The position numbers and the translations under genes were made by a program. Shown piece by piece: positions 12,536 to 38,775 of a stretch of DNA of 64,000 nt. The first letter of the stretch is position 1. Each line of letters starts with the position of its first letter. The notes under the pieces are model-generated. The model was not told the DNA's origin. It saw only the letters and a program-made list of their open reading frames with translations, and made no database searches. The stretch is from Pseudonocardia oceani (GTDB lineage Bacteria; Actinomycetota; Actinomycetes; Mycobacteriales; Pseudonocardiaceae), in assembly GCF_019263585.2 (NCBI RefSeq), contig NZ_JADQDF010000001.1:558001-622000 (forward strand), read 5' to 3'.

Positions 12536-13291
12536 CTATGGGTCCTGAACTACGGCGACGGTACCCACAGCGCTGCCGGAACGGCGCCATGAACTGCCGT
12601 CCATCAGTGCGCCGAACACGAGACCGAGGACGGCCCACAGGACCAGTTGACCGCCGATGGAGGCAACCCGGAAGTCGTAGAGCACGTCCGCTGGGAAGTC
12701 GGCGGGCGTCTCAGCGACCGTCGGGAGGAGGAACCCGAGGATGCCCACCGCGACCCAGTAGGCGCCGGTGGACACGAGGGTGGCGTTCCATGCCCCCATC
12801 CGTACGGCGAGGCTGCGGCCCAGCATCACCGCCCCGATTGCGAGCAGCACCGACAGGATGATGACCGCGACAAAGGGCCCGGTGCGCTGGCCTACCGTGG
12901 TGTCAAGGGTCGACGCGGGCGGATTGGCCGGGTACTTGAGGAACGGGACGAGTGTCACGGAGACGAAACCGATCCCCGCGATCACCGCCGCGGTGGCCCG
13001 GGCGCTGAGGCTGCCGACCCGGCCGACAACCGACGCGTAGACGAGCGACAGGATGCCGCCGATCACCGCACCGTAGACCAGCGCAGCAACGGCGAGGCCG
13101 AACGTGCTCTGGATGCCACGGCTGACGAGCGGCGCCTCCGTGGACACTTCGCCCGCGGCTGCGGCCAGCTGTTCCTCGTAGCCGATGGCCGCGTTGACGG
13201 GCGGCTCCCCGAACAGGTAGGCGAACACGAAGTAGGCCAGCCCGGCGACGAGTCCGGCGAGCATGCCCCGGACCAGCAGGGTCTTCACCAT
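12536..13291 (-). CDS. cbtA: CbtA-family cobalt transporter subunit
   Basis: This 251-residue integral membrane protein has about five helices: 8-28 (GMLAGLVAGLAYFVFAYLFG), 60-85, 98-115, 135-155 and 170-190, plus a C-terminal helix. The opening with GEPPVNAAIGYEE is the CbtA family hallmark. CbtA and CbtB are thought to form a cobalt uptake system, often under cobalamin control. The gene begins 17 bp after cbtB on the same strand, giving a two-gene operon. No residue loss is noticed. Confidence 0.85.
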   Translation of the reverse strand: MVKTLLVRGMLAGLVAGLAYFVFAYLFGEPPVNAAIGYEEQLAAAAGEVSTEAPLVSRGIQSTFGLAVAALVYGAVIGGILSLVYASVVGRVGSLSARATAAVIAGIGFVSVTLVPFLKYPANPPASTLDTTVGQRTGPFVAVIILSVLLAIGAVMLGRSLAVRMGAWNATLVSTGAYWVAVGILGFLLPTVAETPADFPADVLYDFRVASIGGQLVLWAVLGLVFGALMDGSSWRRSGSAVGTVAVVQDP

Positions 13292-19089: not shown

Positions 19090-20532
19090 TCACGGTGCGA
19101 CCGCAGGCGGCCCGGAAAGCAGCGGCAGCAACACGCCCCCGCCTAGACCCAGCGCGACAGACGCGGCCGCAGCGAGGTAGGCGGTGCGGGCCGCGCCGAG
19201 CGCAGGCAGAGTCTCAGCACCGTGTTCGTCGTCGGCATCGCGGAACAACGGCGCGATCCAGCGCAGGTAGTAGAAGACGCTGGCGACGGTGTTGACCACG
19301 GCGAGGACGGCGAGCCAGCCCAGACCCCCCTCGACGGCCGCGGTGAAGACGGTGAGCTTCCCGAGGAACACGGCGGTGGGTGGGGTGCCGACGAGTCCGA
19401 GCAGGCAGACGATGAGTGCGGCGACGAGCAGGGGGTGTCGCCGCGCCGCTCCCCGGTAGTCGTCGAGCTCGCTGTAAGTCGGCAGCGCGGCGACGACGGC
19501 GAAGGCACCCAGGTTGGTGATCGCGTAGGCCGCAAGGTAGAGCAGGAGGGCGGGCTGGGCCAGCTCGGACCTGCCTGCCAGGGCGACCGCCATGAGCAGG
19601 TAGCCGACCTGGCTGATGGTCGAGTAGCCGAGCATGCGCTGCACCGAAGTCTGGAAGAAGGCGGCGAGGTTGCCCAGCGTCATCGACGCGGCGGCCACGA
19701 CGGCCACCAGCAGGGTCGCGTCGACGGCCTCGGGTGGCACGGCGACGAGCAGCAATCGGTAGACCGCGACCAGCGCACCGATCTTCGGGATGGTGCTGAC
19801 GATCGCCGCGACCGCGGGTGGTGTGCCGGCGGTGACGTCGGGGACCCAGAAGTGCACCGGGACGGCGCCCGCCTTGAACAGCAGACCGGCCAGCAGGGCG
19901 ACCACGCCGACCGCGACGACGGCCGTACCGGCGCCGGCAAGACCGTCACGCATCGCGCTGTAGGCCGTGGTGCGGGCGACGCCGTAGAGGATCGCGGTGC
20001 CCGTCAGCATCGCGACGCCGAGGAATGCGCCGGACAGGTAGTACTTCATCGCGGCCTCGGTGGACAGCGCGCGGGCGTCCCACCCCGCGAGTGCGTACAG
20101 GGGCACGCTGGCCAGCAGGAAGGCCGCGAACAGCAGCAGCAGGTCGTTGGCTCCGCCCAGCACGATCGTGCCGAGCGACCCGAGCAGGAGCAGCACCACG
20201 AACTCGGTCTCGCGCCGGTGTCCCCGGGTCGCGTCCGCAGACAGCGCCAGCGCGATCAGCAGGGCCACGAGCACGATCGCCCGGGTGGCGTGGGTGATGC
20301 CGTCGATCGCGTAGCTGGTGCCGAACACGACCTGGTCGGGCTCCCGGGCCGCGGCGGCGGTGGCGGCGAGCCCGGCAACGGCGGCCGCCGCGGCGAGGAG
20401 CCGCACGGGGTACTGCCGGCGCCGTGGGAGCCACGCGCCCAGAAGCAGCCCGACGACCGCGGCGGCGAGCAGCAGCAGCTCCGGCACCAGCGCGCCGGGG
20501 TTCTCGTTCATCGTCATCGCGCCGCCGGTCAT
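19090..20532 (-). CDS. nuoN: NuoN-like antiporter-type subunit of a complex I-like set
   Basis: This 480-residue protein of about 14 helices belongs to the proton-translocating NuoL/M/N family. The two channel lysines are visible (LLFKAGAVPVHFWVPD and VSTIPKIGALV). The conserved Glu of helix 5, expected in 'xxELxSLPLYxL', is not present: residues 135-147 read FAAFLLASVPLYA. It is the last gene of the nuo-like operon and overlaps nuoM by 4 bp (ATGA). The missing Glu could impair or change ion transfer in this subunit. Confidence 0.85.
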   Translation of the reverse strand: MTGGAMTMNENPGALVPELLLLAAAVVGLLLGAWLPRRRQYPVRLLAAAAAVAGLAATAAAAREPDQVVFGTSYAIDGITHATRAIVLVALLIALALSADATRGHRRETEFVVLLLLGSLGTIVLGGANDLLLLFAAFLLASVPLYALAGWDARALSTEAAMKYYLSGAFLGVAMLTGTAILYGVARTTAYSAMRDGLAGAGTAVVAVGVVALLAGLLFKAGAVPVHFWVPDVTAGTPPAVAAIVSTIPKIGALVAVYRLLLVAVPPEAVDATLLVAVVAAASMTLGNLAAFFQTSVQRMLGYSTISQVGYLLMAVALAGRSELAQPALLLYLAAYAITNLGAFAVVAALPTYSELDDYRGAARRHPLLVAALIVCLLGLVGTPPTAVFLGKLTVFTAAVEGGLGWLAVLAVVNTVASVFYYLRWIAPLFRDADDEHGAETLPALGAARTAYLAAAASVALGLGGGVLLPLLSGPPAVAP

Positions 20533-22037
20533 CGCGCCACGAGCTCCACCAGGGTGCGCGACGCCGGCTCGATCACATCGAGCAGGAAGCGCGGCAGGAC
20601 CCCGATCACCGTGGCCAGCACGAGGAGCGGAACGACGGCTGCGGTTTCGCTGGGGCGCAGATCAGCGAACGCGCGTGGTGTCCCAGGTGCGTCGGGCAGG
20701 CGCAGCGGCCCGAGGAAGAGCCTCTGCAGGGCGAGCAGGAACAGCCCGGCGGTGATGACGATCCCGGTGGCGGCCACGACCGTCGGCACCGGTGCGGCTG
20801 GCAGGGCGCCGGTGAAGATCTGGAACTCGGCGATGAACCCGGAGAAGCCGGGCAGCCCCAGTGAGGCGAAGGCGGCGACCGCGAACGCAGCGGCGAAACT
20901 CGGGGTCCGCGCCGCGAGGCCGGAGTAGGCGCGCATGTCGTAGGTGCCGCCGCGGTCGTGCAGCACTCCGGCGAGCAGGAACAGCGCCGCGGTGATCAGC
21001 CCGTGGCTGACCATCTGGGTCACCGCCCCGGTGGTGGCCAACTGCCGGGCCTGCTCGTCGGTGCCGGCCAGCATCCCCGCCGCACCGACGCCGAGGACGA
21101 CGTAACCCATGTGGTTGACCGAGGTGTAGGCGATCATGCGCTTGAGATCGGTCTGGGCCAGCGCGAGAAGCGCTCCGTAGATCACCGACACCGCCCCGAC
21201 GATGACCGCGACCAGGGCGTACTGCCGCCAGGTATCGGGCAGGATCGGCATCGCGATGCGCACGAAGCCGTAGGTGCCCATCTTCAGCAGCACCCCGGCG
21301 AGGATCGCCGAGCCGGTCGCGGGCGCCTCGGTGTGCGCGGGCGGCAACCACGTGTGGAAGGGCACCGTCGGGGTCTTCACCGCCAGGCCCAGCGCGATCG
21401 CGAGCAGGGCCAGTGAGGCGTACGGACCACCTCCCGCGAGCGGGTCCGCGGCGATCAGGTCGACGATGTCGAAGGTCCTCGGCTCGGCGACGAGGTAGAG
21501 CAGGATGAACCCGAGCAGCAGCGCGAGCGAGCCGAGGAAGGTGTAGAGGAAGAACTTCAGCGCCGCGGCGCGAGCCCGGTCCCCGTGGCCCCAGCCCGCG
21601 ATGAGGAAGTACATCGCGACGATCGACAGGTCGAAGAACAGGAAGAACAGGATCAGGTCCAGCGCGACGAACAGCCCGAGGCAGACGGTCTGCAGCCCCA
21701 GGAACAGCGTCACGTAGGCCTTGGTCCGCCGCGTCTCCCGCAGCGCGAACACGGCGCAGGCCCCGAACAGCACGGCCGTCAGCGCGACCAGCGGGAGGGA
21801 CAGTCCGTCCACCCCGACGTGGTAGGAGATCCCCACGCTGGGGATCCACGGCACGCGCTGCTCGAAGGCGAACCCGCCACCGGCCGGGAGCGCGAGCCAG
21901 ACCGCGGCGATGAGGACGAGTTCGAGGACGCTGACGCCGATCCAGGCGCCGACGAACACGCGCGGCGGCGCGGTGCCGGGCACCAGGAGCAGCACCGCGG
22001 CGAGCGCCACGGGCAGGAACACGATCAGCGACAACAT
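20529..22037 (-). CDS. nuoM: NuoM-like antiporter-type subunit
   Basis: This 502-residue polytopic protein has the NuoM landmarks: VKTPTVPFHTWLPPAHTEAP with the channel Lys, and LLKMGTYGF with the second Lys. At the position of the essential helix-5 Glu (E144 in E. coli NuoM) it has Asp (D136, LFFLFFDLSIVAMYF), a conservative change. It starts with ATG just after the nuoL stop. It probably works as one of three ion channels in the membrane arm. Confidence 0.9.
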   Translation of the reverse strand: MLSLIVFLPVALAAVLLLVPGTAPPRVFVGAWIGVSVLELVLIAAVWLALPAGGGFAFEQRVPWIPSVGISYHVGVDGLSLPLVALTAVLFGACAVFALRETRRTKAYVTLFLGLQTVCLGLFVALDLILFFLFFDLSIVAMYFLIAGWGHGDRARAAALKFFLYTFLGSLALLLGFILLYLVAEPRTFDIVDLIAADPLAGGGPYASLALLAIALGLAVKTPTVPFHTWLPPAHTEAPATGSAILAGVLLKMGTYGFVRIAMPILPDTWRQYALVAVIVGAVSVIYGALLALAQTDLKRMIAYTSVNHMGYVVLGVGAAGMLAGTDEQARQLATTGAVTQMVSHGLITAALFLLAGVLHDRGGTYDMRAYSGLAARTPSFAAAFAVAAFASLGLPGFSGFIAEFQIFTGALPAAPVPTVVAATGIVITAGLFLLALQRLFLGPLRLPDAPGTPRAFADLRPSETAAVVPLLVLATVIGVLPRFLLDVIEPASRTLVELVAR

Positions 22038-22040
22038 CTG

Positions 22041-23867
22041 CTACCCCACCACGATGACGAGAACGGCCAGCACCACGAGGGCGACGACGGCCTGGGCGTA
22101 GTACTGGTGGACCTGCCCGGTCTGCGGGCGCCGCGCCAGCCGTCCCAGGCGGCGCGTCCCCGCCGCAACGGCACGCACGGCCCCGTCGACCGACAGCTCG
22201 CCCCGCCGGTCGAGGCTCCGCGCCACGGCCACGGTCGCGCGACCCGCACCGTCCACGGCGCGGTCGAGGACGCGGTCGTCGAAGCGGGCCAGCGCCGCAG
22301 CGAGGACGAGCACCGGACGGACGACCACGGCGTGCGCCGCCCGTCCCATCCCCAGCCAACCCACCAGTGCGCGAGGCGAGGGCAACCGCGAGGCCGACCG
22401 CCAGGTCGACAGCACCACGACGACCGCGATCGACGCGGACACGACCAGCTCCCACACCTGCGGCGCCGGCGCGACGACCAGCGCGCCCGACAGCACGAGC
22501 GGAAGAACGCCGAGCACCGTCGCGAGCACGGCGAGCACGACCAGCGGCGGGGCGAACGCCCCGCTCACCGCGCCGACCGGCTCCTGCTCGACGGGCGGCG
22601 AGCCGCCGGCGACGATCTCGGTGGAGGGCTGCCACACGAACCACACCGCCTTGGCGCTGTAGACCGCGGACACCGCGGCGGCGAGGAGTCCGACGACGTA
22701 GAGCACGACGCTCTGCTCGAGTGCCGCGGCGAGCACGGCGTCCTTGCCGACCCACAGGGACAGCGGCGGTAGCCCGGCCAGCGACGCCGCGCCGATCGTG
22801 AAGGCAACCCCGACGAGCGGGAACCGGCGCGCGGCCCCGCGGAGCCCGTCGAGCTGCTTGGTGCCCAGAGCCACCAGCCAGGCCCCCGCCGCGAGGAACA
22901 GCAGGCTCTTGGTCGCGGCGTGTGCGACCAGCTGAACGGCACCGCCGGCGACGGCCCCGGAGCCGGCGGCCAGGACCATGAAGCCGATCTGCGCGCAGGT
23001 CGACGCCGCGAGCAACTGCTTGAGGTCGGTCTGGGCCACCGCGACCAGGCCCAGGACCACGGCCGTGGCAGCTCCGACCCACGCCACCATCGGCGAGGCC
23101 CATCCACTGCGTTCGAGCAGCGGTACCAGCCGCAGCAGCAGGTAGGCCCCGGCCGCGACCATCGTCGCCGAGTGCAGCAGGGCCGAGACCGGGCTCGGGC
23201 CCCGCATCGCCCCGGACAGCCAGAACGAGAACGGCAGCTGTGCCGACTTGCCCAGCGCGGCGAGCACCACCCCGGCCGTGACGACGTGCAGCCATGGACC
23301 GGAGGCCGCGGGCAGCTCGGCCAGCGCCAGCGACCCGACCCCGCCGGCGAGCGCGGCACCGGCGGCGACGTAGAGGCCCAGATCGGCCAGGCGGGTGGTC
23401 AGAAGAGCGGTGTGCGCCGCGTCGACGGACGCGGGCTCGCGCCAGCGGTAACCGATCAGCACCCAGCTGGTCGCCCCCATCACCTCCCACGCCATGAGCA
23501 GCACGACCAGCGTCGTCGCGGTCACCGTCACCAGCATCGCGCCCGCGAACAGCAGGACGAACCCGACGAAGCGCGCGGTGCGCAGGTCCGACTCCCCGGC
23601 GGCGAACACCAGCACGGCAAGGGTCACGACGGCGACCGTCACGACCATCAGGGCCGAGAGACCGTCCACGGCCAGACCCGCCCGGATGCCGACGAGCAGT
23701 GGGGCGTCGACGGCGGGCCGGACGACGGCGACCGGCACGGCGAGTGCGAGTACGGCAACGCCGAACAGCACACCGATGCCGGCGGAGGCCCGGTCGAGGC
23801 GAGGGCCCGTCACGGTGAGGAGCGCACCGCCGAGCAGCGGGACGGTGACGAGAGCCCACAGCAGCAC
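22041..23867 (-). CDS. nuoL: NuoL-like antiporter-type subunit
   Basis: This protein of about 608 residues has the NuoL core: MAWEVMGATSWVLIGYRW with the helix-5 Glu, LGKSAQLPFSFWLSGAM and GPSPVSALLHSATMV with the channel Lys and His, DLKQLLAAST, and VGKDAVLAAAL with the late Lys. The C-terminal part is hydrophobic and Arg-rich, with a final helix (AQAVVALVVLAVLVIVVG). The GTG at 23867, behind GAAGGG in the end of nuoK, is the likely start; a CTG that overlaps the nuoK stop is an alternative. Confidence 0.88.
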   Translation of the reverse strand: MLLWALVTVPLLGGALLTVTGPRLDRASAGIGVLFGVAVLALAVPVAVVRPAVDAPLLVGIRAGLAVDGLSALMVVTVAVVTLAVLVFAAGESDLRTARFVGFVLLFAGAMLVTVTATTLVVLLMAWEVMGATSWVLIGYRWREPASVDAAHTALLTTRLADLGLYVAAGAALAGGVGSLALAELPAASGPWLHVVTAGVVLAALGKSAQLPFSFWLSGAMRGPSPVSALLHSATMVAAGAYLLLRLVPLLERSGWASPMVAWVGAATAVVLGLVAVAQTDLKQLLAASTCAQIGFMVLAAGSGAVAGGAVQLVAHAATKSLLFLAAGAWLVALGTKQLDGLRGAARRFPLVGVAFTIGAASLAGLPPLSLWVGKDAVLAAALEQSVVLYVVGLLAAAVSAVYSAKAVWFVWQPSTEIVAGGSPPVEQEPVGAVSGAFAPPLVVLAVLATVLGVLPLVLSGALVVAPAPQVWELVVSASIAVVVVLSTWRSASRLPSPRALVGWLGMGRAAHAVVVRPVLVLAAALARFDDRVLDRAVDGAGRATVAVARSLDRRGELSVDGAVRAVAAGTRRLGRLARRPQTGQVHQYYAQAVVALVVLAVLVIVVG

Positions 23868-23872
23868 CGGCG

Positions 23873-24178
23873 TCAGCCCTTCAGGTCCGCGGCGTCGTCG
23901 GTCATGTCGACCTGCCGGGAGCGGTAGATCGCGGTGGCCACCGCGAACCCGGCAGCCATCTCGATCGCCATCGCCGTGATCACCACGACGATCAGCACCT
24001 GCCCGTCGGTGCCGCCGGGCGCGACGTAGTACCAGAACGCGGCCGTGGCGACGATGACGCCGTTGAGCATCAGCTCGAGCCCCATCATGATCATGACGAT
24101 CGACATCTGCGACAGCGCGCCGAACAGCCCGATCGCGAACAGGCCGGCAGCCAGGAGCAGGAACAGCTCGAGGTTCAT
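23873..24178 (-). CDS. nuoK: NuoK-like subunit
   Basis: This 101-residue protein has three helices, with the two conserved intramembrane glutamates in MGLELMLNG and ITAMAIEMAAGFA. It overlaps nuoJ by 4 bp (ATGA). The key acids of the E-channel are kept, so the membrane core appears functional. Confidence 0.9.
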   Translation of the reverse strand: MNLELFLLLAAGLFAIGLFGALSQMSIVMIMMGLELMLNGVIVATAAFWYYVAPGGTDGQVLIVVVITAMAIEMAAGFAVATAIYRSRQVDMTDDAADLKG

Positions 24179-24735
24179 CCGACACCCCCACCGGCCGGGT
24201 CGTCGGCGGGCGAGCGGTCCAGGTCGTCGCCGAACCGGTCGTAGCGACCGCGGCGGGTCGAGAGCACGACGGTCGCGACGATCGTGGCGAACAATGTCAC
24301 GCCCAGGGTCATCATCGTCAGCATCTGCCCGCCCATGAGCGCCTCGCCCAGGGCGAGGGTCAGATCCTGGGCGGGCTCCCCCTGCCGCGTCGGCCAGTCG
24401 ACGAGCAGGATCCCGGCGGCCAGGGCTACGAACACGACCGCTGCTATGACGGCGGAGCCCTTCGTGTTGTGGAACATCGACATGGGCATCAGGCCGGCCG
24501 GGTTCATCATGTACATGATCATGAACACGGCCATGACCACCATCTCGATGATCATCATCAGCACGATCACCACACCCAGGTAGCTCAGACCCAGCAAGAG
24601 CACCAGGCCGGCCACGGCGAGGAACGACGCGAGCAGCGCGAACGTCACCTGGGCCATCGAGTCCAGGCGGAACACCAGTGCGCCGAAGACCAGCGCGGCG
24701 ATGGCCAGCACCCAGAACAGGACGATCGACGACAC
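24175..24735 (-). CDS. nuoJ: NuoJ-like subunit
   Basis: This 186-residue protein has five helices. The Met/Ile-rich helix around residues 57-80 (VLMMIIEMVVMAVFMIMYMM) corresponds to the pi-bulge helix of NuoJ, although the usual Tyr-Gly pattern is changed. It starts with GTG directly after the nuoH stop and overlaps nuoK. The identity also rests on operon order H-J-K. Confidence 0.82.
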   Translation of the reverse strand: MSSIVLFWVLAIAALVFGALVFRLDSMAQVTFALLASFLAVAGLVLLLGLSYLGVVIVLMMIIEMVVMAVFMIMYMMNPAGLMPMSMFHNTKGSAVIAAVVFVALAAGILLVDWPTRQGEPAQDLTLALGEALMGGQMLTMMTLGVTLFATIVATVVLSTRRGRYDRFGDDLDRSPADDPAGGGVG

Positions 24736-25686
24736 CTACATCCCCCCTCGCTGCAGCACGACCACCGCGACGACCAGCGCCTGGGCGATCGTCAACGGGA
24801 TCAGCACGACCCACGCGATCTCGGTCCAGCGGTCCATCCGCAAGGTCGGGACCCGCCGCCGCATCCAGATCAGCAGGGCCAGCACCGCGGCGGTCTTGAG
24901 GCCCGTCCACAGCCACGCGGGCAGCCACGGGCCGGCGCCACCGCCGAGGAACAGCGGCACCGCCATCGCCGCCGCCACCACCAGCAGCAGCCAGCGCCCA
25001 CCGGCGAACACGAGCCGGTCGATCCCGGACAGCTCGGCCACCGCTCCCCCGCCCAGGTCCCGGTGCACGGGCGCGTCGAAGGGCCCCCAGAACGCCATGG
25101 CCGCAGCGGAGAGGAGGTAGGCGCCGAACGCCACGGGCATGAGAACGACGAACCAGAGATCCTGCTGGGCCTCGACGATGTCGCTGACCCGCAGGCTCTC
25201 GGCCGCCAGTGCGACGGTGATGATCGCGAACATGTGGGGCAGCTCGTAGGCCAGGCCCTGCACGACGAACCGGTAGCCGCCCACCAGCGACAGCGCGCTG
25301 TTCGAGCCCCACCCGACCATCCACACCGCCGCCCACGCCACCACCTCCATGGCGTTGAACCACACGACCCCGACGTCGAGGTCCGCGACCGCGAGCCGCC
25401 CCCACGGCAGGACCGCCGCCGCGAGCAGTGCGGCCACCGGGAGCACGGCTGCACCCGTGCGCCCGAGGACCGTGTCGGCGGCGACGGTGCGGCGCCGCTG
25501 CCCGACGAGCAGGCGCGCGGTCTCGCGCACCGGGGTCAGCACGGCTGAGCCGAGCCCGCGGGGGCTCCCGGCGGCGCGGGCGGTCAGCGCGGCGTCGAAC
25601 GCCACAGCGACCCAGGTGGCGACACCCAGCAGCAGTGGGAGCAGCAGCACCGACCAGACCGGGAGAACTCCGGCGGAGTCACTCAT
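24736..25686 (-). CDS. nuoH: Divergent NuoH-like subunit
   Basis: This 316-residue protein has about eight helices. GWGSNSALSLVGGYRFVVQG and YELPHMFAIITVAL match the NuoH pattern (GWaSNSkyaLLGglR, then YEvp). The quinone-site loop, usually 'AETNRaPFDLPEaEsELvaGy', is degenerate: AAMAFWGPFDAPVHRDLGGG keeps PFD but loses the Asn-Arg and most acids. This suggests that quinone binding at the arm junction has been lost or altered. It overlaps the NuoB/D-like gene by 8 bp. Confidence 0.8.
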   Translation of the reverse strand: MSDSAGVLPVWSVLLLPLLLGVATWVAVAFDAALTARAAGSPRGLGSAVLTPVRETARLLVGQRRRTVAADTVLGRTGAAVLPVAALLAAAVLPWGRLAVADLDVGVVWFNAMEVVAWAAVWMVGWGSNSALSLVGGYRFVVQGLAYELPHMFAIITVALAAESLRVSDIVEAQQDLWFVVLMPVAFGAYLLSAAAMAFWGPFDAPVHRDLGGGAVAELSGIDRLVFAGGRWLLLVVAAAMAVPLFLGGGAGPWLPAWLWTGLKTAAVLALLIWMRRRVPTLRMDRWTEIAWVVLIPLTIAQALVVAVVVLQRGGM

Positions 25687-26728
25687 GACGCACCGGGCCC
25701 GTGACCGGATCCAGCGCGGCGACGATCAGGCGGGCAGCAGCCAGCTCGGCCCCGACCACCATCTCGGCGAGGTCCTCCACCACCGCCGGCGCGGGGCCCG
25801 GTACACCGCGCACTGCGGCGCCGGCGGCGGCCAGGCGCCGATCGACCAGAGTGGCGAGGTCGGTGGGGCCGGCCGGTACGCCGCGCACCAGCCGGCGCAG
25901 CGTCCGGGACCGGCGTACCTGCGCCAGCAGCGCGACGGTCCGGTCCGTGACCCGCTCCACCGGGCCACCGGCGTGCAGCTCGTCACGCAGCTTTCGGGCC
26001 CGCGCCGCGGGGTCCGCCCACCCGGCGACGGCGAGCAGCCGCGCGAGCGCGTCGAGCTCTCGTACCGCGTTACGACCGCTGTCACCCAGGTCTTCCGCTG
26101 CCGGCTGATCGCCCCCGTCCAGGACCTCAGCGTGCGCCTGCTGGATGACGTCGCCCTGCAGCGTCACGCGCAGCACCAGTCCGGCGGGCCAATCCGGGAG
26201 CACGGGCCCGAGCGGCACGTGGAGCCGGTCCAGGGTCAGCCCGTCCCGGTCCTCCCCCAGGTCGGCCATCGGCAGGCCACCCGGCATGTCCATCCCCCCG
26301 CCGTGATGGTGATGGCCGCCGTGCTCACCGCCGTGCTCACCGCCGTGCTCACCACCGTGCTCGGCTTCCTGCACCGTCGCGAGGTCGTGCGGTACCGGTG
26401 AATGCGCACGCTGGTGGGCGTGATCCCGCAGCAGTGCAGCCGCGCCGTCGAGTGCAGACACCGCGCGAGACGGGATGCTGATCTCGGTTCGTGCGCGGGG
26501 GGCCGGCACGGTCGCCCAGGTGCGCTCCACCACTGCGGCCAGTTCCGGTCCGGCCGAGCCCGCGACGACCAGCAGGTCGGCATCGGCCGGGCTCGTGGCG
26601 AGCGGCCAGCCCCGGTGGGTCAGCTCCGCCTCGATGGCGAGCCGGACGTCCATCGCGCCGGGCACGGGTACGAGCAGGACGTGCGGGCGGGCGGCACCGA
26701 GGCGCAGCAGCACGGCGGTCAGGTCCAT
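25679..26728 (-). CDS. NuoB/NuoD-like hybrid protein with His-rich linker, no cysteines
   Basis: This 349-residue soluble protein sits where nuoB, C and D would be. Residues 40-80 (ATSPADADLLVVAGSAG, then VVERTWATVPAP) resemble the NuoB segment 'aSPRqADlmiVAG, then vydqMPePk'. Residues 168-200 (HVPLGPVLPDWPAGLVLRV) and the helical C-terminal half resemble the N-terminal region of NuoD/49-kDa proteins. No Cys is present, so cluster N2 cannot form. Residues 123-143 hold four EHGG repeats and four more His, a likely metal-binding loop. ATG at 26728 has GGGAG upstream and overlaps nuoA by 10 bp. The NuoB and NuoD likenesses are read by eye and need a profile search. Confidence 0.55.
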   Translation of the reverse strand: MDLTAVLLRLGAARPHVLLVPVPGAMDVRLAIEAELTHRGWPLATSPADADLLVVAGSAGPELAAVVERTWATVPAPRARTEISIPSRAVSALDGAAALLRDHAHQRAHSPVPHDLATVQEAEHGGEHGGEHGGEHGGHHHHGGGMDMPGGLPMADLGEDRDGLTLDRLHVPLGPVLPDWPAGLVLRVTLQGDVIQQAHAEVLDGGDQPAAEDLGDSGRNAVRELDALARLLAVAGWADPAARARKLRDELHAGGPVERVTDRTVALLAQVRRSRTLRRLVRGVPAGPTDLATLVDRRLAAAGAAVRGVPGPAPAVVEDLAEMVVGAELAAARLIVAALDPVTGPVRHE

Positions 26729-27069
26729 CGCAGTGCTCCCTCCCGCCAGGCGTAGAGCACGCCGGCGAGCAGGATGGCGAGGAAGAGGAACATCTCGATC
26801 ACGGACGCGACACCGACGCGGGAGACGACCAGTGTCCACGGGTACATGAAGAGCATCTCCATGTCGAAGGCGAGGAACACCAGCGTCACGGGGTACCAGC
26901 GGACGTGGAACCGGGACACGGCGTGCTCGGTCGCGGGAAGGCCCCCGGAGAACGGCGGCACGTCTGTGGCGATCCGGGCGACTGCCAGGAGCCTCGACAG
27001 TCCGTAGCCCGCGAGGACCAGTGCGACCGATACGCCGAGCAGGGCCAGGACCGGACCGAACTGCGTCAT
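26719..27069 (-). CDS. nuoA: NuoA-like subunit
   Basis: This 116-residue protein has three helices and the NuoA core RFHVRWYPVTLVFLAFDMEM (family 'RFxVrFYlxAmlFiiFDiE'), including the conserved intramembrane acids. It is the first gene of the nuo-like operon. Its ribosome site and start codon are preceded by a 20-bp duplicated copy that forms a short upstream frame (see 27066-27089). Confidence 0.88.
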   Translation of the reverse strand: MTQFGPVLALLGVSVALVLAGYGLSRLLAVARIATDVPPFSGGLPATEHAVSRFHVRWYPVTLVFLAFDMEMLFMYPWTLVVSRVGVASVIEMFLFLAILLAGVLYAWREGALRWT

Positions 27070-27104
27070 GTCACCGCTCCTCGGGTCATGTCACCGCTCC
27101 TCGT
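27065..27104 (-). repeat. 20-bp tandem duplication of the nuoA ribosome site and start
   Basis: Two adjacent 20-bp units (27065-27084 and 27085-27104) differ only in the last base. Each carries GAGGAGCGGTGACATGAC on the minus strand, that is, a Shine-Dalgarno site plus ATG. The downstream copy drives nuoA. Confidence 0.85.
27066..27089 (-). CDS. Seven-residue leader ORF coupled to nuoA
   Basis: The upstream ATG (27089) with its own GAGGAG reads M-T-R-G-A-V-T and stops at TGA (27068-27066), which overlaps the nuoA ATG as ATGA. This arrangement could couple or damp nuoA translation. It is seen directly in the sequence; its use is inferred. Confidence 0.4.
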   Translation of the reverse strand: MTRGAVT

Positions 27105-27235
27105 GGGGTGTGGGGACGGTCAGTTGATCGTGTCGGCCAGGGGTGTGACTACCCCGAGCGGCCGAGAAGAACCTGACGGGGCCGCCCGGGTGGCGCCGGC
27201 TCGATGACCGAACCGGTGCCATCCGGGCTGCCGGC

Positions 27236-29509
27236 TCAGGTCTGAGCGGTGAAACCGCGCAGGCGCAGGCTGTTGGCGACGACGAAGACCGAGCTGAACG
27301 CCATCGCCGCGCCGGCGATCATCGGGTTCAGCAGCCCGGCCGCGGCCAGCGGCAGAGCGGCCACGTTGTAGGCGAACGCCCAGAACAGGTTGCCCTTGAT
27401 CGTGCCCAGCGTGCGGCGTGACAGCCGGATCGCGTCGGGCACCGACCTCAGGTCCCCGCGCACCAGCGTGATGTCGCTCGCCTCGATGGCGACGTCGGTG
27501 CCGGTGCCCATGGCCAGGCCGAGGTCGGCCTGAGCGAGCGCGGCGGCGTCGTTGACGCCGTCGCCGACCATCGCGACGACCTTGCCCTCGCTCTGCAACC
27601 GCTTGATCACCTCGAGCTTGTCGGCGGGCAGCACCTCGGCGATCACCTCGGTGATGCCGACCTCCGCCGCGACGCTGCGTGCGACGGCGGTGTTGTCTCC
27701 GGTGAGCAGGACGGGGGTCAGCCCGAGCGCGCGGAGCTGCGCGATCGCCTCGGCCGAGGTCGGTTTGACCGTGTCGGCGACGACGAGCACCGCCCGTGCC
27801 GTGCCGTCGACGGCTACCGCGATCGCGGTGCGCCCCTGGTCCTCCGCGGCGGCCTTGTGGACGGCCAGCGCGTCGGGCAGCGGCTGGCTCCACTGCTCCA
27901 GGAGCGCCGTGCGGCCGGCCAGGACCGCGTGCCCCTCGACGACGCCCTGCACGCCCAGGCCCTCGATGTTGGAGAACTCCTCCGCGGGCGGCAGGTCGCC
28001 GACGCGCTCCCGGGCACCGCGGGCGATCGCCGACGCGATCGGGTGCTCGGAGGCGTCCTCGAGCGCGCCCGCGAGCCGCAACAGCTCATCAGGGTTCTCG
28101 CCCTCGACCACGTGCACGTCGACGAGCGCCATGCGCCCGGTCGTGACCGTGCCCGTCTTGTCCAGCACGACGGTGTCCACGCGTCGGGTGGACTCCAGCA
28201 CCTCGGGACCCTTGATCAGGATCCCGAGCTGGGCGCCGCGGCCGGTGCCGACGAGCAGCGCGGTCGGCGTCGCGAGCCCCAGCGCGCAGGGGCAGGCGAT
28301 GATCAGCACCGCCACCGCGGCCGTGAACGCCGCGGCGGTCCCGACGCCCGCGCCCAGCCAGAAGCCGAGCGTCGTGGCGGCCAACGCGATGACGATCGGT
28401 ACGAAGACCCCGGAGACGCGGTCGGCGAGGCGCTGCACATCGGCTTTGCCGCTCTGCGCGTCCTCGACGAGCTTGGCCATCTGCGCGAGCTGCGTGTCGG
28501 TACCGATGCGGGTGGCCCGCACGACCAGCCGGCCGCCGGCGTTCACGGTGGCTCCGGTGACCACGTCGCCCGGGACGACCTCGACCGGCACGGACTCGCC
28601 GGTCAGCATCGAGGCGTCCACGGCCGACGAGCCCTGCTCGATGACGCCGTCGGTGGCGATCTTCTCGCCCGGCCGTACGACGAACCTGTCGCCGACTGCC
28701 AGTTGAGCGGTGGGGATCCGGAGCTCGACACCGTTGCGCAGGACCGCGACCTCCTTCGCGCCGAGTTCCAGCAGAGCGCGCAGCGCTGCACCGGCCTGCC
28801 GCTTCGACCGTGCCTCGAAGTACCGGCCGGCGAGGATGAAGGTGGTGACTCCCGCGGCGACCTCGAGGTAGATGTTGCCCGCCCCGTCCGACGGGGCGAC
28901 GGTGAGCTCGAAGGGGTGCACCATCCCCGGCACCCCGGCGGTACCGAACAGCAGCGCCCACAGCGACCACGCGAAGGCGGCGAGCACGCCCATCGACACG
29001 AGCGTGTCCATGGTCGCGGCACCGTGGCGCAGGTTCGCCCAGGCCGCGCGGTGGAACGGCCACGCCGCCCAGGTCACGACGGGTGCAGCGAGCGTCAGCG
29101 AGATCCACTGCCAGTAGGTGAACTGCCACGCCGGGACCATGGCCAGTGCGATCACCGGAACGGCCAGGGCCGCGCTGGTGATCAAGCGGTCGCGCAGGGG
29201 ACGTGTCGCGTCGACCTCGTCGACGGCGGCGTCACCGTCGCCGGAGGCGGGCGGACGAGGTAGGACGGCGGTGTAGCCCGCCGCCTCGACCTGCGCGACC
29301 AGCGTCTCGGGGTCGACGCCCTCGGGGGCCTGCACCCGGGCCTTTTCTGTGGCGTAGTTGACGGATGCGGTCACGCCGTCGATCTTGTTGAGCTTGCGCT
29401 CGATCCGGTTGGCGCAGGAGGCGCAGGTCATCCCGGCGATGGCCAGCTCGATCTCGGTGACCGGTGTCGTGGGTGCGGCGCCCTCGGGCGCCGACGTGAA
29501 CGTGCTCAT
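27236..29509 (-). CDS. copA: Copper-exporting P1B-type ATPase
   Basis: This 757-residue ATPase has one N-terminal heavy-metal domain with GMTCASC (residues 26-32), then eight membrane helices including [12 protein letters not shown] (the CPC metal site). The actuator loop has MLTGESVPV, the phosphorylation site is DKTGTVTTG, the nucleotide-domain HP motif is SEHPIA, and GDGVND is the hinge. The CPC and GMTCxxC set is typical of Cu(I) export, though Ag(I) is also possible. ATG at 29509 has GAGAGGAG upstream. It is the fourth gene of the csoR-led operon and ends 167 bp before the nuoA start on the same strand. Confidence 0.95.
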
Positions 29510-29529
29510 GGTGCGGTCTCCTCTCGCGA

Positions 29530-30498
29530 TCAGTGGCCGTGGCCGGGCTCGCCGTGCGCGTCCGTCGGGGCGGGCGCGACGACAGGTGCGGCACCTGTGG
29601 TCGAAACGGTGAACTCCGCGGTGCGCACGGCACCGCCGTGCCGGAAGTCCAGGAACAGCCGGTAGGTGCCGGCGCTGGGCACCTCGGCGACGAACGGGAT
29701 CTGCGGTCCGGCCGGGCCGGCCTCGGGGTGCACGTGCAGGTATGCCAGGTCCCCCTGCCGCAGCGCGACCAGGTGTCCGTAGGCACCGAGGTAGGGCTGC
29801 AGGTCGCTGACGGGAACGCCGTCCTTGCTGACCGTGAGGGTCACGGGTGAGGACTGTCCCGGGACCAGGTCGCCCGCCAGTTCGACGGAGTAACCGTCGA
29901 CCTGCGCGACGCGACTCGGCGCGTGGACGACCGGCTCGAACGTTCCGGCCGCCACGAGATCCACTCCGAGGGTTGTGGCCGCGCCACCGGTGGGGACGAA
30001 GTCGGCGAACGCGCGGTAGGACCCGGCGGTGTCGACCGTCGTCGGGGCCGTCCAGGTGCCGTCCGGGGACATCTCCGGGTGGAGGTGCTGGAAGCCGGCC
30101 GTGTCGCGGCGCACCAGGATCAGGTGCATCCGCTTCTCGTGCTCGACGTCGAACGCCGTGACGGCGGTCCCGTCCGGGCCGGTGATGCGGAAGGTCAGGT
30201 CTTGCGTCGTGCCCGGGGTGAGCGTCACGTCGGCGGGGGTGAGGGTGTAGCCCCCCGCGCTGGACGCCAATCCGCCGGGCTGGTCGGTCGCGGCGTCCGC
30301 GACGGTGCCGCTGTGTGCGTCCCCGTGTCCGGCTTCCTCGGCGCCCGCGGGCGCCATGCCGGACATCGTGCCGTTCTCGCCGCTTGAAGCGGCGGATGCG
30401 GTGGCGAGGGGACCGACAGCGGATCCGGTCGCCCAGCCTGCTCCTGCGAGCAGGACGAGCGCCGCACCGTAGGCGGACAGCTTCGCTGTGGTGTTCAT
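29530..30498 (-). CDS. Secreted His/Met-bearing protein of the copper operon
   Basis: This 322-residue exported protein has a signal peptide (about 8-35, ending ATASAASS) and a Met/His-rich segment ([18 protein letters not shown]). Two beta-sandwich-like repeats follow, each with a His motif: [14 protein letters not shown] (about 137-150) and [13 protein letters not shown] (about 253-265). The C-terminus ends EPGHGH. The HxHPE motifs suggest copper binding outside the cell. Similar proteins accompany copA in actinobacteria. It lies 20 bp upstream of copA. Confidence 0.75.
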
Positions 30499-30521
30499 GT
30501 CACATCCTCGGGTCGAGCCCG

Positions 30522-30728
30522 CTAGCTCGCGAGCTTGTAGCCGGCCTCCTCGACGGCGGCGCGGACGCGCTCGTCGTCAAGGGGCTCGGTGCTGGTGACT
30601 GTCACGGCGCCGGATGCCAGGTCCACGACCACGTCCTGCACGCCGTCGATCTCACCGATCTCCTCGGTGACCGAGGCGACGCAGTGGTCGCAGGTCATTC
30701 CCGTCACGGTGTAGGTGCTCTGGTTCAT
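30522..30728 (-). CDS. copZ: Copper chaperone CopZ
   Basis: This 68-residue heavy-metal-associated domain has the ferredoxin-like beta-alpha-beta-beta-alpha-beta length and GMTCDHC at residues 10-16. It should carry Cu(I) to CopA and possibly to CsoR. ATG at 30728 is preceded by GGAAGA. It lies between csoR and the secreted protein gene in the same operon. Confidence 0.93.
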   Translation of the reverse strand: MNQSTYTVTGMTCDHCVASVTEEIGEIDGVQDVVVDLASGAVTVTSTEPLDDERVRAAVEEAGYKLAS

Positions 30729-30745
30729 CAGTTCTCTTCCTTGTC

Positions 30746-31027
30746 TCAGGACTTCACGAGGCGGGCGATGGCGGCGCTCGCCTCGGCCACCTTCTGGTTC
30801 GCGACGTCGCCGCCTTCAGCCGCTGCCTGGGTGACGCAGTGCTTGAGGTGCTCATCGAGCAGACCCAGTGCCACGGCCTCCAGCGCCTTGGTGGTGGCTG
30901 ACACCTGCGTCAGCACATCGATGCAGTACTTGTCGTCCTCGATCATCTTGGCGATGCCGCGCACCTGGCCCTCGATGCGCCGCATGCGCTTGAGGTAGGC
31001 GTCCTTGTCCTGCGCGTAGCCGTTCAT
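30746..31027 (-). CDS. csoR: Copper-sensing repressor CsoR
   Basis: This 93-residue all-helical regulator has the Cu(I) ligand triad C35, H60, C64 (KYCIDVL; DEHLKHC) and the DNA-contact opening RMRRIEGQVRGI. It is the first gene of the copper operon. An inverted repeat that fits a CsoR operator lies 27 bp upstream of its ATG, so it should repress itself, copZ, the secreted protein, copA and perhaps the nuo-like genes. Confidence 0.93.
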   Translation of the reverse strand: MNGYAQDKDAYLKRMRRIEGQVRGIAKMIEDDKYCIDVLTQVSATTKALEAVALGLLDEHLKHCVTQAAAEGGDVANQKVAEASAAIARLVKS

Positions 31028-31053
31028 GGCCACTCCTTCCGCCGGCTCGTTGA

Positions 31054-31077
31054 GTATACCATAGGGGGGTATGGTAC
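31054..31077. promoter_or_regulatory. CsoR operator
   Basis: GTATACCATA-GGGG-GGTATGGTAC has a G-rich centre flanked by TATACC and GGTATGG half-sites, as in known CsoR boxes. It lies just upstream of csoR and covers its likely promoter. Confidence 0.7.
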
Positions 31078-31131
31078 CCGAATGATTCACGTAGGACGCT
31101 GGTGACCGGTGTCCATCGGGGGTCCTCGCCG

Positions 31132-31668
31132 TCACGCCGCGCCGGAGGAGGGTTCGGCCGGGTTCAGACCGGCAACGAGGTTGAACGAGCCGGTCAGCTG
31201 GTTGAGCGCGACGAGGCCGATGACGTCGGCGAGGACGCGGTCGCTCCAGCCGTGCCCGCGCAGCTCGGCGAGGTCGGTGTCGCGCAGGGAGTCGGGTTCG
31301 GTGAGCACCCGCACTGCGTAGGTGATGAGGGCCGCCTCGCGGGCGTCGGTCGCCGTGCCCTCCCGGGCGAGCGCGATGTCGGTCCCGCTGAGGCCGACCG
31401 CGCGCGCGGCGGCGGTGTGCGCAGCGAGGCACAGTTCGCAGGCGATCCACTCCTGCAGGGCGGGTGAGATCTTCTCACCGAGCGGGCGCGGGACGGCAGC
31501 CCGCTTCATCGCGCGGGAGAGCTCGAGGTAGCCCTGGAGCAGGGCCGGGGAGTGGGCCATGGTGCGGACCATGGTTCCGGCGTCGCCGTGCTGGTGGATG
31601 ATCTCGCCGAGGAGCCGGGCTGAAGCGGCGGGTGCGGTGTCGGGATCCAGGGGACGTAGGCGGGGCAT
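31132..31668 (-). CDS. Carboxymuconolactone decarboxylase/AhpD-like protein
   Basis: This 178-residue helical protein has a CxxC redox centre (ACELCLAAH, about residues 76-84) placed as in AhpD/CMD proteins, with the trailing His of the proton relay. It may act as a peroxidase-like or thiol-disulfide enzyme in oxidative defence. ATG at 31668 has GGAAGG upstream. It follows the universal stress protein gene on the same strand. Confidence 0.82.
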   Translation of the reverse strand: MPRLRPLDPDTAPAASARLLGEIIHQHGDAGTMVRTMAHSPALLQGYLELSRAMKRAAVPRPLGEKISPALQEWIACELCLAAHTAAARAVGLSGTDIALAREGTATDAREAALITYAVRVLTEPDSLRDTDLAELRGHGWSDRVLADVIGLVALNQLTGSFNLVAGLNPAEPSSGAA

Positions 31669-31742
31669 GGGGGTGGCCTTCCGTGAGAGGGGATCGGGGG
31701 CCGACCGCCGCGCCGGGTGGCGACCGGCGCGGCGGGCCGGCG

Positions 31743-32231
31743 TCAGCTCGTCCGAACCGAGCGCGGAGCGCCGGTGACGCCGGCGGGCGGGACCACGAGG
31801 GTCGGGCGGTGGCCGTGGTGCAGGACCGTGGTCGAGGTGCTGCCGAGGACGGCGGCCCGCAGCCCGCGGCGACCGCGGGAGCCGAGCACGATCGCGGAGG
31901 CGTCAACGGCGTCGGCGGCCTCCACGATCGCCTCGGCAGCGGTCTGCCCGATGGCTGCGACCCGCGGTGCGGCGTCGAGCCCGGCGGCCCTGGCCTCCCG
32001 GGCACCCTCGTCAGCGACCCGTTCCGAGCCGTCGAGTGTGCGGGCGTCGTCGGCGCGCAACTCCTCGATCGCCGGGTGGTTCTCGAGGTGGGCGGCAACG
32101 GCCTCGAGCGGTTCGCGGGCGTAGAGGACGACAGCCGGCGCGCCGGGGAAGAGGTGCCCGGCGACCTTGACCGCCGCGCGGGCGTCGGGCGATCCGTCAT
32201 AGGCGATGAGGACGGGATGGGTGGTGTGCAT
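31743..32231 (-). CDS. Universal stress protein
   Basis: This is a 162-residue UspA-fold protein. VLIAYDGSPDARAAV begins the ATP-binding fold and VLGSRGRRGLRAAVLGST is the Gx2Gx9GS-like nucleotide motif, so it is an ATP-binding type. It lies between an MFS exporter gene and the CMD gene on the same strand, which suits a general stress set. Confidence 0.88.
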   Translation of the reverse strand: MHTTHPVLIAYDGSPDARAAVKVAGHLFPGAPAVVLYAREPLEAVAAHLENHPAIEELRADDARTLDGSERVADEGAREARAAGLDAAPRVAAIGQTAAEAIVEAADAVDASAIVLGSRGRRGLRAAVLGSTSTTVLHHGHRPTLVVPPAGVTGAPRSVRTS

Positions 32232-32246
32232 GATGGTTTCCTTCGC

Positions 32247-33677
32247 TCAGGCGGTCGTTGCCGGCTGGGACTGGCTGGCGGGGCGGGAGGTGCGCAGGGG
32301 GACGGCGGCCAGGACGGCGCCGGCCGCGGCCAGCACGGCGGCTCCAATGAACGCGGCCGAGTAACCGTCGGTCAGGGCGGTCAGGTCACCGAGCCGGCCC
32401 GCGCCCTGGCTCGTGGCCAGCGCGGTGATCGCGGCGAGCCCGAGCGCGGACCCGACCTGGTAGCTGGTGTTGACGATCCCCGCCGCCAGCCCCCCCTCCT
32501 CGGGGCGCGCCGCGGACAGCGCGGTGCCCAGCGTGGGGATGAAGGCCATCGACATGCCCAGCGCGGCGACGATCGAGGCCGGCAGGACGTCGACCGGGAA
32601 GCTGCCGTCGGGTCGGACCATCGCGAGCCAGGCCATGCCGGCGGCGAGCACCGCGAGCCCGCTGACCGTGAGCGTCCTGGGGCCGAAGCGGGCGATCAGC
32701 CGCGGTGCCAGGACGATCATCCCGAGCATGATCACGATCGTCATGGGCAGCAGCGCCGCTCCGCTCGGGAACGCTGTGTATCCCAGGACCTGCTGCAGGT
32801 AGAGGTTCAGGAAGAACCACATGGGGATCCAGGCCGCCCCGAGCAGGAGCTGCGCAACGTTGGCTGCGGCGAGGTTCGGCGCCCGGAAGATGCCCAGCCG
32901 CATCAGCGGTTCTGCGCGGCGGCTCTGGATGGCGACGAACAGCGCGAGCAGCAGCGCGGCGCCGCCGAGCGTGACCAGCGTCGTCGCGGACGCCCACCCC
33001 GTCTCCGGCGCCTGCACGATCCCGAACACGGCGAGGGCGAGACCGGCGGTGACGGTCACGGCACCGGCGACGTCGACAGCGCCGCTCCGTCGGCCGCCCG
33101 CGGGCATCAGGGCCGGGGTGGCCGCGAGCACGAGCAGCGCGATCGGGACGTTGAGGTAGAACACCCACGGCCAGCTGACGTACTCGGTGATGACGCCGCC
33201 GAGGAACACCCCGGCGGTCCCGCCGGCCGGGGCGGCGGCGCCGTACAGCGCGAGTGCCTTCGTCAGCTCGCGGGGCTCGGACCCGAAGATCATCATCAGT
33301 AGCGTGAGGGCCGCGGGCGCGATCAGCGCGGCGCCCGCGCCCTGCACGGCGCGCCCGAGGAGCTCCCAGCCGGCACTGCCCGCGGCGCCGGCCACGACGG
33401 ACCCGACGAGCAGGGTGAGCCAGCCGATGGCGAAGATCCGCCGCGCGCCGAACAGGTCCGACAGGCGCCCGCCGAGCAGCAGCAGCCCACCGAACGCGAC
33501 GACGTAGGCGTTGAACACCCAGGACAGGCCCTCGGGGGTGAAGCCGAGGTCTGCCTGCATCTTCGGCAGGGCGACCCCGATGATCGACGTATCCATGATG
33601 ACCATGAACTGTGCGGTGGCGATGAGGAGGAGACCCCATCGCCGTCGGAGGGGTGTGGAAGTGGTGGTCGCGTCCAT
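32247..33677 (-). CDS. MFS exporter, DHA2 (14-helix) type
   Basis: This 476-residue transporter has about 14 helices. FMVIMDTSIIGVALP and LGGRLSDLFGARR (motif A between helices 2 and 3) are typical of the DHA2 drug/H+ antiporters. ATG at 33677 is chosen for TTGGAG upstream and because helix 1 then begins at residue 12. The substrate is unknown. Confidence 0.85.
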   Translation of the reverse strand: MDATTTSTPLRRRWGLLLIATAQFMVIMDTSIIGVALPKMQADLGFTPEGLSWVFNAYVVAFGGLLLLGGRLSDLFGARRIFAIGWLTLLVGSVVAGAAGSAGWELLGRAVQGAGAALIAPAALTLLMMIFGSEPRELTKALALYGAAAPAGGTAGVFLGGVITEYVSWPWVFYLNVPIALLVLAATPALMPAGGRRSGAVDVAGAVTVTAGLALAVFGIVQAPETGWASATTLVTLGGAALLLALFVAIQSRRAEPLMRLGIFRAPNLAAANVAQLLLGAAWIPMWFFLNLYLQQVLGYTAFPSGAALLPMTIVIMLGMIVLAPRLIARFGPRTLTVSGLAVLAAGMAWLAMVRPDGSFPVDVLPASIVAALGMSMAFIPTLGTALSAARPEEGGLAAGIVNTSYQVGSALGLAAITALATSQGAGRLGDLTALTDGYSAAFIGAAVLAAAGAVLAAVPLRTSRPASQSQPATTA

Positions 33678-33833
33678 CGAGCGCTCCAAGGTGAAGGGAT
33701 CTGACGCGACGGAGAGTGCGTGCCCGGTCTGTCCTCGTGCTGTCCCACGGCGGGGCGCGCTGTCCACGCCGGACAGCACCCGGACAGCACCGGCCCCCAC
33801 GCTCGTGACGGTCACGGAAGCGATGGAGTCGCC

Positions 33834-34040
33834 ATGCAGACGCTGCGGGTCTCGGTACCGGCCATGTCGTGCCGGCACTGCGTGCGCGCGGTCAGCCGGC
33901 ACCTCTGCGACGTCCCCGGAGTCGAGACGATCACCGCGGACGCCGCTGCCGGCATCGTCACGCTGAGGGGAACGATGACCGTCGCGGAGGTGGTCGTCGC
34001 GTTGCGGGAGGCCGGTTTCCCGGCCAGCGCGCTTCCCTGA
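33834..34040 (+). CDS. Heavy-metal-associated domain protein (CopZ-like)
   Basis: This is a 68-residue single HMA domain with MSCRHC (residues 11-16) and the expected fold length. ATG at 33834 has GGAG five bases upstream. It is divergent from the MFS gene and convergent with the SARP gene, so apart from the csoR operon. It may be a second Cu(I) chaperone; the motif lacks the usual GMT before C but keeps CxxC. Confidence 0.82.
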   Translation: MQTLRVSVPAMSCRHCVRAVSRHLCDVPGVETITADAAAGIVTLRGTMTVAEVVVALREAGFPASALP

Positions 34041-34054
34041 CCATGTTCCCCGGT

Positions 34055-37667: not shown

Positions 37668-38080
37668 CGGACCGTCAGCTCGGCCAGCAGCGCGCGGACC
37701 CGGGCGTCGATGTCGTCGCGGATCGGGCGGACGTCCTCGAGGCCCTTCCCGGCGGGGTCGGTGAGCTCCCAGTCGAGGTAGCGCTTGCCGGGGAAGACCG
37801 GGCAGGCGTCGCCGCAGCCCATGGTGATCACCACGTCAGCCGCCTCGACGGCGTCGGTCGACAGCTTCTTCGGGACCTCCCGCGACAGGTCCAGCCCGAT
37901 CTCGGCCATCACCTCCCGCACGGCCGGGTTGATCGTGTCGGCGGGCGCGGACCCGGCGGAGGCGACCCGCACGGCGCCGGCGGCGTGGTGCGCGAGCAGC
38001 GCGGCGGCCATCTGCGAGCGGCCGGCGTTGTGCACGCAGACGAACAGCACCTCGGGGACGGTCACCGTCTGCTCCGTCAT
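37664..38080 (-). CDS. arsC: Arsenate reductase (LMW-phosphatase fold)
   Basis: This 138-residue enzyme has the P-loop C15-VHNAG-R21 and later VITMGCGDACPVFPGKRY, with the paired cysteines used for resolution or mycothiol/thioredoxin exchange, and DPAGK with the catalytic Asp. It reduces arsenate to arsenite for export by Acr3. It overlaps both neighbours by 4 bp within the ars operon. Confidence 0.85.
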   Translation of the reverse strand: MTEQTVTVPEVLFVCVHNAGRSQMAAALLAHHAAGAVRVASAGSAPADTINPAVREVMAEIGLDLSREVPKKLSTDAVEAADVVITMGCGDACPVFPGKRYLDWELTDPAGKGLEDVRPIRDDIDARVRALLAELTVR

Positions 38081-38730: not shown

Positions 38731-38775
38731 GACGGCCTTCTTCCTGCTGGAAGCGATGGGCGGACGGGGAGGGAC

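Follow-up and report, generated by a model that had tools for sequence, protein, structure and literature searches.

A complex I-like membrane arm without a redox arm in Pseudonocardia oceani and other bacteria is linked to copper genes and may export copper(I)

What does a complex I membrane arm do when its redox arm is missing? The question is raised by eight genes on the minus strand of a 64,000-nucleotide stretch of the Pseudonocardia oceani genome (contig NZ_JADQDF010000001.1, positions 558,001 to 622,000; hereafter the window), which occupy window positions 19090-27069 in the order A-X-H-J-K-L-M-N, where X is a fused NuoB-like and NuoD-like protein and the other letters stand for homologues of the Nuo subunits of complex I. 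The original prediction, made from the letters of this stretch, had proposed an ion-translocating module working on something other than NADH:quinone chemistry and left that other chemistry open; the data point to copper(I), which is implicated by the gene neighbourhood, by CsoR-type operators at many loci, by a methionine helix in NuoJ and by a metal-binding linker predicted in X. An association of the family with copper is, in our judgement, highly probable. As far as sequence comparison can tell, the cluster probably encodes (we put the probability at roughly 0.6) a complex-I-derived copper detoxification complex, most likely a Cu(I) exporter driven by the proton motive force, that is, an H+/Cu+ antiporter. 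The copper connection appears to be what is new here; the seven nuo genes themselves are already published as a partial NDH-1 operon.

A membrane arm capped by a cysteine-free shell

The seven Nuo-like proteins of the window, all on the minus strand, pass Pfam family cut-offs: NuoA (26719..27069; PF00507), NuoH (24736..25686; PF00146), NuoJ (24175..24735; PF00499), NuoK (23873..24178; PF00420) and the antiporter-like NuoL (22041..23867), NuoM (20529..22037) and NuoN (19090..20532; all three PF00361). Nuo models also rank first in NCBIfam, with scores mostly below the curated cut-offs (among the rows shown, only NuoM passes its subfamily cut-off, and NuoK passes one NuoK model by 2 bits), and we therefore treat the window proteins as divergent members. 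Redox-free cation/proton antiport by complex-I-like subunits, the kind of role proposed here, is found in Mrp antiporters (PMC7419157). The family differs from these in that its N, M and L score better in NCBIfam with Nuo than with Mrp models and in that it has NuoA, NuoH and X.

The absence of a redox arm, on which the original prediction turned, was borne out. The gene layout leaves no room between the eight genes for NuoC, E, F, G or I, a reading of gene positions for which no dedicated profile search was made; no cysteine-bearing NuoB was found within the window, and none of the scanned genes flanking the cluster is a redox subunit, which supports a module working on chemistry other than NADH:quinone. 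The single match to the NuoB family PF01058 in this genome lies 1.5 Mb from the cluster, inside an ordinary nuo operon, and 53 of 53 X-bearing genomes tested likewise have a PF01058 match elsewhere, PF01058 being a family that also covers hydrogenase small subunits.

In the place of NuoB and NuoD stands X (25679..26728, minus strand), a fused shell whose NuoD-like part spans residues 155-348 (25685..26266, minus strand). The window protein contains 0 Cys, and the alignment of X has no Cys in its invariant or 90% columns; the four N2-cluster cysteines that characterize the NuoB of complex I are thus missing from window X. The window protein matches no Pfam family at E 0.01, the 43 main-family X proteins give only weak Pfam matches (NuoD family, 2; NuoB family, 1; an unrelated family, 1) and Foldseek returns no match at E <= 0.001 (best, 5e-3); the NuoB/NuoD assignment rests on comparisons other than these two. 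Between the two parts of window X lies a His/Met-rich linker (EHGGEHGG..HHHHGGGMDM; 26276..26365, minus strand), for which metal binding is predicted from its sequence and from the sister clade described next.

Six loci in five genomes of one family of the same phylum (L229-L234), picked from weaker X matches, form this sister clade. They carry the same eight genes and the same NuoJ methionine helix, and their X proteins (551-746 aa) have a Pfam heavy metal binding domain (HMBD) in 6/6 cases (E 5e-12 to 2e-27), placed in the linker region, as well as NuoD-family Pfam matches in 6/6. Genes for a copper-type P1B ATPase, a CsoR-type regulator and an HMA protein lie near all six loci. At one of them, a gene for a Na/H exchanger-family protein (L229:5717-6946) is found between the copper repressor and the cluster.

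Copper genes and predicted operators accompany the cluster

In the window the cluster is the downstream part of a same-strand run, RicR-CopZ-secreted protein-CopA-A-X-H-J-K-L-M-N, with whose copper genes it is presumably co-transcribed. The first gene encodes a 93-aa RicR/CsoR-type copper-sensing repressor (30746..31027, minus strand; NCBIfam RicR E 1.4e-48, 163.4 bits, just below the cut-off of 175), the second a 68-aa CopZ-like copper chaperone (30522..30728, minus strand; NCBIfam CopZ 63.4 bits at E 1.6e-17, below the cut-off of 91, the CopZ models falling short of their thresholds), the third a putative secreted His-rich protein of 322 aa (29530..30498, minus strand) and the fourth a copper-type P1B ATPase (CopA-like; 27236..29509, minus strand) with a CPC motif and an N-terminal HMA domain (PF00403; TIGR01511 538.8 bits against a cut-off of 397). 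The 322-aa protein, between copZ and copA, has no confident Pfam or NCBIfam match and has homologues in 11/50 loci, the window and its duplicate counted. Gaps of 17-23 bp separate the four copper-side genes, and 166 bp lie between copA and nuoA. A predicted CsoR/RicR-type operator (31057..31071), 29 bp upstream of the repressor gene, has one mismatch to TACCCN5GGGTA, a consensus taken from the report that Streptomyces lividans CsoR binds ATATACCCCTNAGGGGTATAT (PMC3902906, in the part consulted). It is the sole match with at most one mismatch in the 64 kb, but 0.34 such sites are expected per window and at least one arose in 32 of 100 shuffles, so it is the position of the operator, not its presence, that counts as evidence.

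Across the family, copper-island genes sought with phmmer queries lie near the cluster at many loci: at least one near 34/56 main-family loci and at least two near 26/56, and such genes near 6/6 sister loci, compared with 1/20 random stretches and 0/15 ordinary nuo loci. These neighbourhood counts omit L038, L055 and L060. An earlier version of the count, with 50 loci and 21 controls, gave the same picture. Leaving aside the six query-source loci the linkage stands at 28/50, and with near copies also removed at 25/46; a strict set (P1B ATPase, multicopper oxidase, CsoR, CueR, CusA and CusF) gives 24/50. The count excludes P-type ATPases without CPC and matches to the query proteins labelled IS/other, M23, LDT, DsbA, cytc, F510glyco and DUF6153; it includes the 322-aa neighbour, whose removal changes nothing. 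Various of the genes for multicopper oxidase, P1B ATPase, HMA, CsoR-/CueR-type and DUF305 proteins surround plasmid loci in Arthrobacter, Curtobacterium and Pseudonocardia, and various of the same copper-type genes surround the alphaproteobacterial plasmid loci of Roseivivax and Acuticoccus. On a Novosphingobium contig, genes for TolC-family, CusB-like (under the cut-off), CusA/CzcA-family and CusF proteins lie upstream of nuoA. None of the sought copper genes lies near the cluster in Gordonia, on both Rhodococcus plasmids or in Pseudarthrobacter.

CsoR-type boxes were more frequent than by chance within 350 bp of nuoA at every stringency: 7/45 loci versus 4/1000 random stretches with 0 mismatches, 19/45 versus 16/1000 with at most one and 31/45 versus 237/1000 with at most two. 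Linkage to copper genes is present in the family, though not at every locus, and its copper regulation consists of predicted operators. A chance origin was rejected: the methionine helix described below is absent from 30 control NuoJ proteins, and the copper linkage is nearly absent at random and ordinary nuo loci.

Methionines gained along the E-channel

The residue alignments, which omit L038 (a copy of L037), L055 (split frames), L060 (a remnant), L067 (a contig end) and L061 (an ordinary nuo locus), with L059 additionally omitted from the comparison of Cys and His in X, show where the family has departed from complex I. NuoJ positions 57-90 contain 11-13 Met in 49/49 family rows, compared with 1-3 in 30/30 ordinary NuoJ; M60, 61, 65, 68, 72, 76, 77, 85 and 87, together with H89 and the newly gained E64, are invariant in all 49 rows and in the six sister rows, and M61, 65, 68, 72 and 76 lie within 80 degrees on a helix wheel. 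NuoJ residues 60-89 (24469..24558, minus strand), comprising the Met-lined helix 3 and the MNPAGLMPMSMFH loop, are the proposed Cu(I) path. NuoA gained three Met around a conserved Glu (44-48 of 48 rows; FDMEMLFMYPW in the window) and two invariant His, one of them common to the sister clade; NuoK gained four Met around its two kept E-channel Glu (47/47 rows); and NuoH gained one Met (49/49 rows) that is absent from the sister clade. By the test applied to A, J and K, no Met was gained in L, M or N, and Met content relative to controls is higher in A, J and K and lower in H, L, M and N. In complex I the A/J/K region forms the E-channel, which is gated by helix 3 of ND6, and ND3 and ND6 each contribute loops to the interface with the peripheral arm (PMC7613608 and PMC10036122, in the sections consulted).

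Losses fall elsewhere as well. The quinone loops of NuoH have lost E, K, Q, D, K, K and E, and later E and R, which are kept in 18-20 of 20 controls. The helix-5 Glu of NuoN is replaced by Leu (47/47 rows), and in NuoM one Glu has become Asp and another Gln. NuoL lacks one Lys and one His that ordinary NuoL conserves, NuoA lacks a Lys and a Glu, and NuoJ lacks a Glu; several Tyr and Asn are lost as well. Apart from these exceptions, L, M and N retain the membrane Lys, Glu and His of antiporter-like subunits, the remaining listed Lys, Glu, His, Arg and Asp being kept in 46-47 of 47 rows. The residue calls of the original prediction, namely kept L/M/N channel lysines and NuoK glutamates, a lost NuoN helix-5 Glu, Asp in NuoM and a degenerate NuoH quinone loop, hold in the alignments, with one NuoL Lys as the exception. 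Compared with the membrane arm of complex I, the family has homologous A, H, J, K, L, M and N subunits with the main antiporter lysines and NuoK glutamates in place; it differs in having no C, E, F, G or I gene in the cluster and no full B or D, in the loss of the NuoB cysteines and NuoH quinone-loop residues and in its Met-rich A, J and K.

A possible route for copper(I), and what weighs against it

In the mechanism that we propose, X would cap the cytoplasmic side of NuoH/A/J at the site held by NuoB/NuoD in complex I, without an FeS cluster. Cytoplasmic Cu+ would be collected by the His/Met-rich linker of X, or by the heavy-metal-binding domains in the sister clade, and handed to the Met/His-rich NuoJ loop (MPMSMFH), which would lie at the E-channel's cytoplasmic entrance. 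From there the ion would follow the stripe of methionines on NuoJ helix 3, beside those acids of NuoA and NuoK that are flanked by Met, and leave on the outer side. The energy would come from protons flowing back through the antiporter-like L, M and N, so that the complex would resemble complex I in reverse with a metal in place of electrons. We infer the assembly of this complex, transport and its direction, the metal and the stoichiometry. We give even odds to the specific proposal that the E-channel has been turned into a Cu(I) conduit. The eight subunits would then export copper with protons as the driving force and with no part played by redox chemistry or ATP, and they would represent a new class of metal pump as well as a new energy-coupling module of the complex I superfamily. 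Like the CopA P1B ATPases and CusCFBA, the family has copper linkage, Met/His-rich stretches and, in the sister clade, HMBD, and a Cus-type set adjoins one family locus; unlike them, it is an eight-gene complex without an ATPase or RND component.

Several observations weigh against a copper exporter of this kind. None of the sought copper genes is present in the stretch examined at 22/56 main loci; five of these 22 have a CsoR-type box upstream of nuoA (L036, L037, L048, L066 and L083), L236, L237 and L238 have none and L084 lacks the region, which leaves 17/56 main loci with neither copper gene nor box, L084 counted among them. In the window and in its duplicate, the 350 bp next to nuoA contain no such box. 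The copper queries were drawn from six family loci and the window, the random controls are 20-kb stretches from seven genomes all of the window's genus, and the linkage and box counts are not independent because the loci are related. HMBD is found by Pfam in 0/43 main-family X proteins, whose linkers are uneven in His content (2 His in L081 and 3 in L058). The structure model of NuoJ is moderate (pLDDT 73.5), L and M gained one His each, outside A/J/K, and the losses of conserved residues in L, M, N, A and J mean that the proton route is altered. CopA alone is already a Cu(I) exporter. Finally, some plasmid copies are broken or truncated (L055, L060, L236 and L238), with split frames, gene loss and an IS3 transposase beside X.

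Alternative explanations

Some other copper-related task is possible but unlikely: the complex might deliver Cu(I) to periplasmic cuproproteins, take up Cu(I), or export Ag(I) or a different soft metal. Met/His ligands do not discriminate Cu(I) from Ag(I), and multicopper oxidase and DUF305 neighbours, together with merB near the cluster on one plasmid, would suit such a task; the linked genes, however, lie on the efflux side (regulators of the RicR/CsoR and CueR types, ATPases of the CopA type and a Cus system). We consider somewhat less likely still a complex in which X binds Cu(I) and which couples Cu(I)/Cu(II) chemistry with quinone to the movement of protons, so that Cu(I) would be made harmless by being oxidized and not by being transported. 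The resemblance of X to NuoB/D and the copper linkage, with multicopper oxidase genes adjoining 9/56 main and 4/6 sister loci, are consistent with this, but it agrees poorly with degenerate quinone loops in NuoH and with the missing NuoB cysteines, and it would leave the methionine stripe in the NuoJ membrane helix unexplained.

The published interpretation, in which a partial NDH-1 serves marine or osmotic adaptation by pumping protons or sodium, appears improbable to us. A seven-gene 'second partial NDH-1 operon' was described in marine Salinispora and proposed to pump protons or sodium in seawater (Penn and Jensen 2012, PMC3314556), later papers describe the nuoA,H,J,K,L,M,N set in Streptomyces and Kocuria (PMC4018334, PMC6002675, PMC6676996), and a 2025 survey mentions plasmids that carry partial Nuo sets (PMC12361115, section 11). 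The family shares with that operon seven nuo genes in actinomycetes without redox genes, and on this gene content the two are very probably the same; the accessible parts of the first four papers assign it salt-related proton or sodium pumping and leave X unmentioned. In those parts PMC3314556 and PMC4018334 do not use the word 'copper' at all (0 occurrences), PMC6002675 and PMC6676996 use it only of habitats or of genes outside the set, and we found no literature linking the gene set to copper in a search that mostly excluded subscription papers. Against salt-driven pumping, a cluster without a redox arm has no evident energy source, soil isolates and plasmids are among the carriers, the loci show copper linkage and CsoR-type boxes, and strain SM254, a published carrier, was isolated from mine fluids rich in copper, a habitat that its authors related to possible osmotic stress (PMC6676996, as far as the text was available). 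A functionless, decaying nuo copy, as some broken copies might suggest and as the original prediction had named as its own refutation, is very improbable and was rejected because 48/53 loci keep the eight genes in one order, new residues are invariant and NuoM forms one clade.

An H+/Cu+ antiporter derived from complex I thus remains our preferred interpretation.

Distribution of the family

All eight genes lie in the order A-X-H-J-K-L-M-N on one strand at those 48 of 53 loci (ordinary nuo excluded), two of which have genes split over frames (most genes in L055, J and H in L075); the other five are contig ends (L032, L033, L067 and L084) and the remnant L060. In the NuoM tree, 47 family and six sister rows form one clade apart from 14 complex I rows (support 100/99). 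X was found in 21/60 genomes searched as relatives and, at >=92 bits, in 17/396 sampled genomes of the phylum, the P. oceani genome counted in both. In a survey of 289 alphaproteobacterial genomes, full-length X occurred only in the centre genome and no new member was found; other alphaproteobacterial carriers turned up among contigs and plasmids, and a partial X-like match with two stop codons is present in another alphaproteobacterium (G505:C11:74054-74518; L146). On a Mycobacterium avium plasmid (L235) the eight genes are all annotated, with a P-type ATPase, an HMA protein and an ISMav6 transposase as neighbours. No phage record matches NuoJ at E 1e-5.

The P. oceani genome holds further copies of the island. 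Window positions 19090-35522, copper genes included, are duplicated at ~2.44-2.46 Mb of contig C3 of the same assembly (G000; L062) with 98.5% identity over 16.4 kb within the stretch compared, and a third, diverged copy lies at 5.43 Mb of C3 (L063). Elsewhere in the window, an ACR3 arsenite exporter (over the cut-off) and an arsenate-reductase-like phosphatase are encoded at 38077-40047 (minus strand) and a CbtA-family protein at 12536-13291; perhaps these genes mark a wider metal-resistance region around the cluster.

Implications

It is an open question how complex I couples an event near its quinone site to distant proton movement; the E-channel and helix 3 of NuoJ/ND6 are central to the answer. 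In the family described here the proton half of that machine seems to have been kept, and the redox half to have been replaced by metal passage at NuoJ and the E-channel. If this is true, coupling could be examined in a system that involves neither electrons nor quinone, an operon so far described as a pump for salt adaptation would be reassigned, and many actinomycetes would carry, on plasmids and chromosomes, a new kind of copper-resistance machine.

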